Origin: Heliocybe sulcata
Taxonomy: Eukaryota > Basidiomycota > Agaricomycetes > Gloeophyllales > Gloeophyllaceae
DNA length: 64,000 nt
Direction: 5' to 3'
Assembly: GCA_004369045.1 (NCBI GenBank)
Contig: ML213524.1
Coordinates: forward strand, 269,667-333,666
Part shown: one piece after another, positions 47,251-48,422 of the stretch
How the letters are laid out: each line of letters begins with the position of its first letter
Position numbering within the stretch: the stretch's first letter is position 1
Position numbers and translations under genes: made by a program
Notes under the pieces: model-generated
Told to the model about the DNA's origin: nothing
The model's input: the letters and a program-made list of their open reading frames with translations, nothing else
Database searches by the model: none

Positions 47251-48422
47251 TCAATCGTCATCAATGATAATAACATCCTGATCCGCTGGTCTCCCCACTC
47301 TCGGCCGTTTCGCAGTTCCGCTCCTGCCCGCTCCATCGTCATCGCCCAGGACCACTGCGCCGTTGTCTGACCCCGGTCCTGCCTGTCGCTTCCGTTTCCC
47401 TGATACAGTCGACCCTTCCTCGTCCGAATCCTCGATGGCAATGGCAGCTGACGCAGAGCGACCAGCAGTGCCATCAAACGCGGGCGTAGCTGTCCTTGAA
47501 GCTGCGGCAGTGGGAGTGGCCATCCTTGAGCTGGAAGCCGTGGCCCTTGCTTTCCCGAGGACTCGTGCCGCGGAGCTCGCCCGTGAGGAGGTGGAGGTGG
47601 AGGGGATAGGGGTAGATGTTGATGCCCGTGCAGCTGAAGTTGAAGAAACCTTTGTTCTGGGGGATGGGGCAGATTGGGCCGGTGGACGGGCGTAAAGGCG
47701 CGTCCATTCGCGGGCTGTTTGGTTGTGCTTTTCACGGTTGCGAGTGTATTCTGACGCAATTGACGGTACTGGAAACATTATCAGTATGTGACAACACGAA
47801 GCCAGACCGCACTGCTCACCTAGTGGGTCCTCTGAAACAGGACCAACTCGTTAAGGAAGTAACACATGAAGACCATAGCGTGACGCACTGGGATTGGGAT
47901 CCGTGAGCAAGGAGGATAGGGATAGTACGACCTTGAATATTGACAGAGCTGGCGACCAATTGTGCTTTAGGATGTCTATACAAACATTACCTCGGTCGGA
48001 GATGTTCATGTGGTATATTCTACCAACCCCGATACTAAGCGAGCATGTACCTGCAACGGTATAAGCACAAGCTTACCGCGTCAGAAACACAACCTTGGGT
48101 GCCATGAACCTGGCCACAATCCTCTCAGCCACAATGATCATTACACTCAATCGGGTACGCACGGGTAATCAGGCGCTAGATGGATCTCCGCAATGAACAC
48201 GCCGCCATCGTACACGCTGCCTTCCGGCCCAGGTATCCCTGCCTTCCATACAAAAAGGTTATCGGTCGGTGCGAGGGTTATGCCACCCATATCTTCTTTC
48301 TTCAGGTCAGCGATCTCGCGGTGGATGCGCTTTATAGTCATCTGATAATCTCAAGTCAGTATATACGTCAGAAATTCCTCCTCAGGCATAGAACATACAG
48401 CAGATGACAAGCCGGGAGGCAT
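47251..48422 (-). CDS. ubiquitin-conjugating enzyme E2 with long SIM-rich tail
   Basis: UBC-fold enzyme that carries ubiquitin as a thioester. A short first exon, MPPGLSSA, joins [20 protein letters not shown], then [59 protein letters not shown] and [20 protein letters not shown]. The catalytic Cys is about residue 92, in GNVCIDIL. The core resembles the UBE2D/UBE2E (Ubc4/5) class. It continues [29 protein letters not shown] and then adds a tail of about 145 residues, which such E2s normally lack. The tail is Ala/Ser/Thr-rich, has basic clusters (GKRKRQ, AKRPR) suiting nuclear import, and three hydrophobic-acidic motifs ([26 protein letters not shown] at the very end) that look like SUMO-interaction motifs. 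The gene is divergent from Utp22. Confidence 0.87.

Follow-up and report, generated by a model that had tools for sequence, protein, structure and literature searches.

The question raised by this locus is whether a ubiquitin-conjugating enzyme (E2) can itself read SUMO. The gene in question is on the minus strand of the window, that is, the whole stretch of 64,000 nt analysed here, and all window coordinates are positions within it. In the sources cited below, as far as their available parts go, SUMO-targeted ubiquitination is the job of E3 ligases that bear SUMO-interaction motifs (SIMs). The initial annotation had placed an E2 with a long tail at 47251..47780, and this was borne out: the last exon runs from 47768 to 47251 (minus strand) and the tail has 144 residues, where 145 had been claimed. 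We consider it probable, though with clear reservations, that the product is a divergent E2 of the UBE2D/E type with a tail ending in a SIM, and that it would be tethered to SUMO-modified nuclear proteins.

The gene comprises six exons between 48422 and 47251 (minus strand, as for all its features given below), with GT-AG borders, and its product has 298 residues. Splice signals, together with the fit to UBE2D/E, were used to predict the exon borders. Exon 1 (48399..48422), a splice-signal prediction, would encode MPPGLSSA; it has an ATG, a GTATGT donor and a phase that agrees with exon 2. Helix 1 and the first strands of the UBC domain are encoded by exon 2 (48163..48341), and ten residues alignable to UBE2E1 and UBE2D2 by exon 3 (48077..48109). 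Exon 4 (47889..48019) carries the sequence HMN at residues 82-84 (48012-48004) and the catalytic Cys92 (47982-47980). It is followed by a microexon of only 12 nt, exon 5 (47820..47831), which completes NPKDPLV and restores the NPxDPLVPxIA pattern, as in UBE2D2 and in UBC4 of the same genome. Finally, exon 6 (47251..47768) contains the last UBC helix, the entire tail and the stop codon. With the end of the core set at R154, the UBC core covers residues 1-154 and the tail, which is probably disordered, residues 155-298 (47254..47685).

There is no exon border between the last UBC helix and the tail and, because both are in exon 6, the tail needs no splice to reach the core. The worry expressed at the outset, that the tail exon might not be spliced to the UBC core, is therefore largely removed. 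The scan of exon 6 for splice signals revealed neither a GTRNGT donor nor a CTRAY branch point; what the exon does contain is a single weaker GTRRG site, at 47298, and many YAG trinucleotides. Since the tail shares its exon with the core and the GTRNGT and CTRAY signals are absent, its reading frame is set by the UBC core.

In the Pfam analysis of the protein, UQ_con (PF00179) was matched with an E-value of 5.2e-43 over residues 13-148 (profile positions 1-139 of 140), and no RING or other domain was present besides it at E-values up to 1. Among solved structures, the best matches were UBE2E1, also named UbcH6, and UBE2D2, with 78/142 and 80/145 residues identical to the core, respectively. 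UBC4 of the same genome shares 78/145 residues with the core, and it is itself identical to UBE2D2 at 119/146 positions. Since core identities reach only 54-55%, the gene is, as judged from these values, probably a diverged UBE2D/E-type paralogue and not the housekeeping UBC4. The core had been described as ordinary, and this cannot be maintained, both for these modest identities and for the HPN motif, which reads HMN. The catalytic Cys is present at residue 92, and the His and Asn of the motif are retained. The replacement counts against our preferred reading, as it makes the activity of the enzyme less certain, yet UBE2E1 has HCN at the same position. The protein resembles UBE2D and UBE2E (Ubc4/5, UbcH6) in its UBC fold, its catalytic Cys and the same core plan, at the identities mentioned, and differs from them in having HMN instead of HPN or HCN and a putative terminal SIM. 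UBE2D enzymes are not known to have a long tail, and those of the UBE2E type carry N-terminal extensions. When the whole protein was searched against its own genome, 12 matches were obtained, three on the E2 gene itself and the other nine all on E2 cores; no homologue of the tail was found among them. As modelled, the first intron of UBC4 in this genome (L035, minus strand) opens with GC (GCAAGT) and not with GT.

The tail holds three hydrophobic-acidic motifs and, in the gaps between them, two basic clusters; all of them had been proposed in the initial annotation and all were recovered, the motifs in frame. The first, of ten residues with an AIAI core (47416..47445, residues 235-244), is a weak SIM-like sequence in which the serine of EDSDEE may be a CK2-type site. 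After it come the basic cluster KRKR (47386..47397), the second SIM-like motif AVVLGDDD (47335..47358, residues 264-271), the basic cluster AKRPRVGRP (47287..47313) and, directly before the TGA stop, DVIIIDDD (47254..47277, residues 291-298), a putative terminal SIM of canonical letters. Both basic clusters are of a type that we take to be possible nuclear localisation signals. According to the available part of PMC12751080, a SIM has a four-residue core, typically with at least three hydrophobic residues, and acidic or phosphorylatable residues can contribute to it; moreover, a SIM serine amid acidic residues makes a favourable target for CK2, and SIMs can gain strength when phosphorylated. 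By this broad rule, with V, I and L as the foremost hydrophobic residues, VIII fits fully, AVVL fits with three residues and AIAI does so only if alanine is counted, and acidic or phosphorylatable flanks are present at all three motifs. Therefore, from the original proposal of three SIMs, DVIIIDDD stands as canonical and terminal, AVVLGDDD qualifies under the broad definition only and the AIAI motif is weak. Three working SIMs in tandem would go beyond this evidence.

A strict SIM was defined as [VIL][VIL]x[VIL] or [VIL]x[VIL][VIL] with at least three acidic residues among the four on one side. When the tail was shuffled 100,000 times, a strict SIM appeared anywhere in 176 of the shuffles and started within the last ten residues in 6. 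With a looser rule, one or more motifs were found in 2,499 of the 100,000 shuffles; 11 had two or more, and none had three. These figures flatter the finding, as the rule was drawn up after the motifs had been seen. Only one of the three motifs, DVIIIDDD, matched ELM-style SIM expressions. Among 20,000 shuffles, 14.4% also matched the parallel expression and 5.5% the antiparallel expression, and there was one match to the former inside the folded UBC core as well; since shuffles and folded core match too, such an expression is by itself weak evidence. What carries the argument for a putative SIM is how strong the last motif is and that it stands at the very end of the protein. We also considered whether the motifs had arisen by internal duplication of the DNA, a view that was unconvincing: only the second and third motifs, one pair of the three, were unusually similar (5 of 1,000 shuffles scored as high), and this over a short acidic run.

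To place the terminal motif in its genomic context, codon patterns followed by a stop were searched in the 31.6-Mb genome. The pattern [V/I/M]4[D/E]3-stop had a single match, the E2 gene, and its reversed control also had one. A broader pattern, [A/V/I/M/T][V/I/M]3-D-x-[D/E]-stop, gave seven matches against four in the reversed control, so that neither pattern is clearly above its control in number. Six of the seven matches end in a stop, and two are on recognisable genes, namely the E2 (VIIIDDD) and Ufd1. The latter ends in DDDAIIIDSD-stop (G000:C3:1171391-1171414; L050, L053), and it was identified from a partial model, joined by hand, that matched PF24842 (2.8e-32) and PF03152 (4.5e-25). 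As for the remaining matches, L052 and L055, whose frames are open over 155 and 97 residues, showed no Pfam family at E-values up to 0.01; upstream of L054 and L056 the frame is open for just 11 and 1 residues; and at L057 no stop comes after the match. The pairing of E2 and Ufd1 was spotted post hoc. Even so, the Ufd1 ending is, in terms of sequence, what we would regard as the best new evidence, as another protein of the same genome that probably connects ubiquitin and SUMO ends similarly.

The Ufd1 of budding yeast ends in a SIM resembling the one in Srs2, and deletion of this SIM slows the unfolding of a SUMO-polyubiquitin substrate; in fission yeast, an analogous SIM of Ufd1 binds SUMO (PMC9910466, available part). 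The likeness to these proteins lies in a SIM, putative in the E2, placed in the last residues. The Ufd1 of this genome has AIIIDSD there, and the E2 has VIIIDDD. On these grounds, the view that DVIIIDDD has the sequence and position of the established class of extreme C-terminal SIMs (Ufd1, Srs2) appears supported. The difference is that yeast Ufd1 is a Cdc48 cofactor and Srs2 a helicase, and here the putative SIM sits on a ubiquitin-conjugating enzyme. A search for UvrD_C in the same genome yielded three matches in two places. One of these, at C20, belongs to a UvrD helicase that we take to be Srs2-like; the frame after the UvrD_C match closes without a SIM, and later exons are possible. In the second UvrD_C gene, at C6, the long frame ends in ...AREVMGDS, with no SIM. 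Both endings count against our preferred reading.

The other E2s of the genome served as a control. Genome-wide, PF00179 gave 26 matches, of which two were on the E2 gene and the other 24 fell in 19 loci. In none of these 19 was a strict SIM found in the three sense frames of the 799-900 bases that follow the last UBC match, and the same three-frame scan of the window E2, from a hand-set start, did contain one; the scan is crude, as the other genes were read unmodelled and some of the stretches still hold UBC exons.

It could be argued that nothing sets the tail apart from other quickly evolving, disordered extensions with nuclear localisation signals, and that its hydrophobic-acidic runs arose by accident, are specific to the lineage or have no affinity for SUMO. 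We regard this as unlikely, although it retains real weight. The tail has a high content of A, S, T and R, and only 11% of its residues are order-promoting, compared with 32.5% in the core. AlphaFold2, run without alignment on a 171-residue piece of exon 6, placed the UBC helix at piece residues 3-25 and gave block-mean pLDDT values of 46-59, with no strand, for piece residues 31-160, that is, about 50 across most of the tail; for piece residues 161-170, which hold the terminal motif, the mean was 74, with no secondary structure. In the charge-hydropathy analysis the tail fell slightly on the folded side (0.436, with the boundary at 0.423), and given this value disorder is likely but not clean. 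An accidental origin would also agree with the weakness of two of the three motifs and with the codon patterns that do not clearly exceed their controls. What argues against it is that a strict SIM at the end was so rarely reproduced by shuffling, that the sole genomic match of the narrower codon pattern is the E2 itself, and that its ending resembles that of Ufd1 in the same genome.

If the terminal motif is a SIM, its partner would be at hand. In the genome there is a SUMO-like gene (L044), with Rad60-SLD at 1.9e-24 versus ubiquitin at 1.1e-13 on a hand-joined partial model, as well as an E2 fragment (L024) which we take to be Ubc9-like. According to our preferred reading, of an E2 tethered by its own tail, the terminal VIIID would add a beta-strand to the SIM groove of SUMO, in the manner of the terminal SIMs of Ufd1 and Srs2, and the acidic residues of the motif would face the basic rim of SUMO. 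In this way, the ubiquitin-charged E2 could be held near SUMO-modified, probably nuclear, proteins or near SUMO chains, where ubiquitin would be passed on with the help of a RING ligase or by the E2 on its own. AVVLGDDD and the AIAI-core motif may add avidity. SUMO binding, a nuclear location and an effect on the choice of substrates by the E2 are what we infer from the motifs.

The same binding could have another consequence. The terminal motif might bind SUMO mainly for the SUMOylation of the E2 itself or for its placement in SUMO-rich nuclear bodies, which seems to us rather improbable. SUMO:SIM contacts can govern the location of enzymes that conjugate or deconjugate SUMO (PMC12751080, available part), and the two basic clusters of the tail could direct the E2 to the nucleus. 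Nothing specific speaks against this possibility: the binding step is common to it and to the tethering of the E2 to SUMO-modified proteins, and only the consequence differs.

A partner other than SUMO is quite improbable. The candidates would be an E3, the SUMO-like domain of a protein that is presumably of the Rad60/Nip45 type, or the UBC core itself, with the motif as an autoinhibitor. The tails of E2s can bind E3s, as in the case of UBE2S and the APC/C, and the genome does contain a gene with a SUMO-like domain (L046, G000:C7:267500-268900; PF11976 match at 2.7e-5). However, among the motifs considered the letters of DVIIIDDD fit the SUMO groove best and, as regards a LIR-type motif, the tail has no aromatic residue except one Phe.

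Codon usage was also evaluated. As many as 36% of random synonymous versions of the tail score as high as the tail itself, and the core reaches only 7%. With a simple codon model trained on 660 codons, the true frame of the tail scored below four of the five other frames, and three of those four hold stops; the test is confounded, because the amino-acid make-up of the tail is unusual. Codon usage gives no support for the tail as coding, and it does not refute it either. That the gene model is wrong and the tail is not translated as read is very improbable: a second sense frame is also open over exon 6, the exon borders are predicted and codon usage does not pick out the true frame, but the UBC helix encoded by this exon fixes the frame, and the exon lacks a GTRNGT donor and a CTRAY branch point.

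Returning to the reading of a SUMO-tethered E2, a close functional parallel is found in SUMO-targeted ubiquitin ligases (STUbLs; RNF4, Slx5-Slx8, RNF111; PMC8161396, available part), in which SUMO read by SIMs is coupled to the transfer of ubiquitin, as the E2 would do; they differ in being RING E3s, and the protein of the window has a UBC domain and no RING. Membership in the STUbL class needs a RING together with SIMs, so that this protein falls outside it. The partners of STUbLs include Ubc4/5 and UbcH6 (PMC8161396, Table 1). In addition, UBE2E1 ubiquitinates a SETDB1 peptide without an E3, in a natural E3-independent reaction (PMC10858943, available part), which offers a precedent for an E2 of the UBE2D/E type that selects its substrate by itself; UBE2E1 reads a peptide sequence of the substrate, and the tail of the window E2 would read SUMO. 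Because STUbLs use Ubc4/5 and UbcH6, and UBE2E1 can act without an E3, it is plausible, as far as the available parts of these sources go, that such an E2 could itself read a mark. With two RING queries, no canonical STUbL was recognised in the genome of the window: each query had a single weak match (1.5e-3 and 7.6e-4), to RING genes that did not appear STUbL-like.

A ubiquitin E2 with a SIM of its own was not found in the open-licence literature, among the matches listed, nor is one mentioned in the available parts of PMC5325457, PMC12687455, PMC12751080 and PMC11354881. If true, the presence of a terminal SIM on the E2 itself would shift the reading of SUMO one step up the cascade. Furthermore, the similar ending of Ufd1 suggests that the writing and the extraction of SUMO-ubiquitin marks could make use of one short reader motif. 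The most far-reaching form of this idea, which we consider doubtful, is that the E2 reads SUMO through terminal, possibly tandem, SIMs of its own, ubiquitinates SUMO-modified nuclear proteins without a SIM-bearing E3 and shares these substrates, which would then be extracted by Ufd1-Cdc48.

Relatives of the E2 were also sought with six exact peptide patterns in one scan of viral and one of prokaryote contigs, collections that contain no fungi; 1 and 70 pattern matches were obtained, respectively, and none was confirmed. With respect to the neighbourhood of the gene in the window, a tRNA-like gene, whose type ARAGORN left undetermined, is located downstream at 46931-47018. On the other side, a gene of the Nrap/Utp22 type lies on the plus strand at about 48700-50400 (PF03813, 4.3e-22 on a joined piece). 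It is divergent from the E2 gene, with a gap of roughly 280 bases as estimated by eye from the first ATG.
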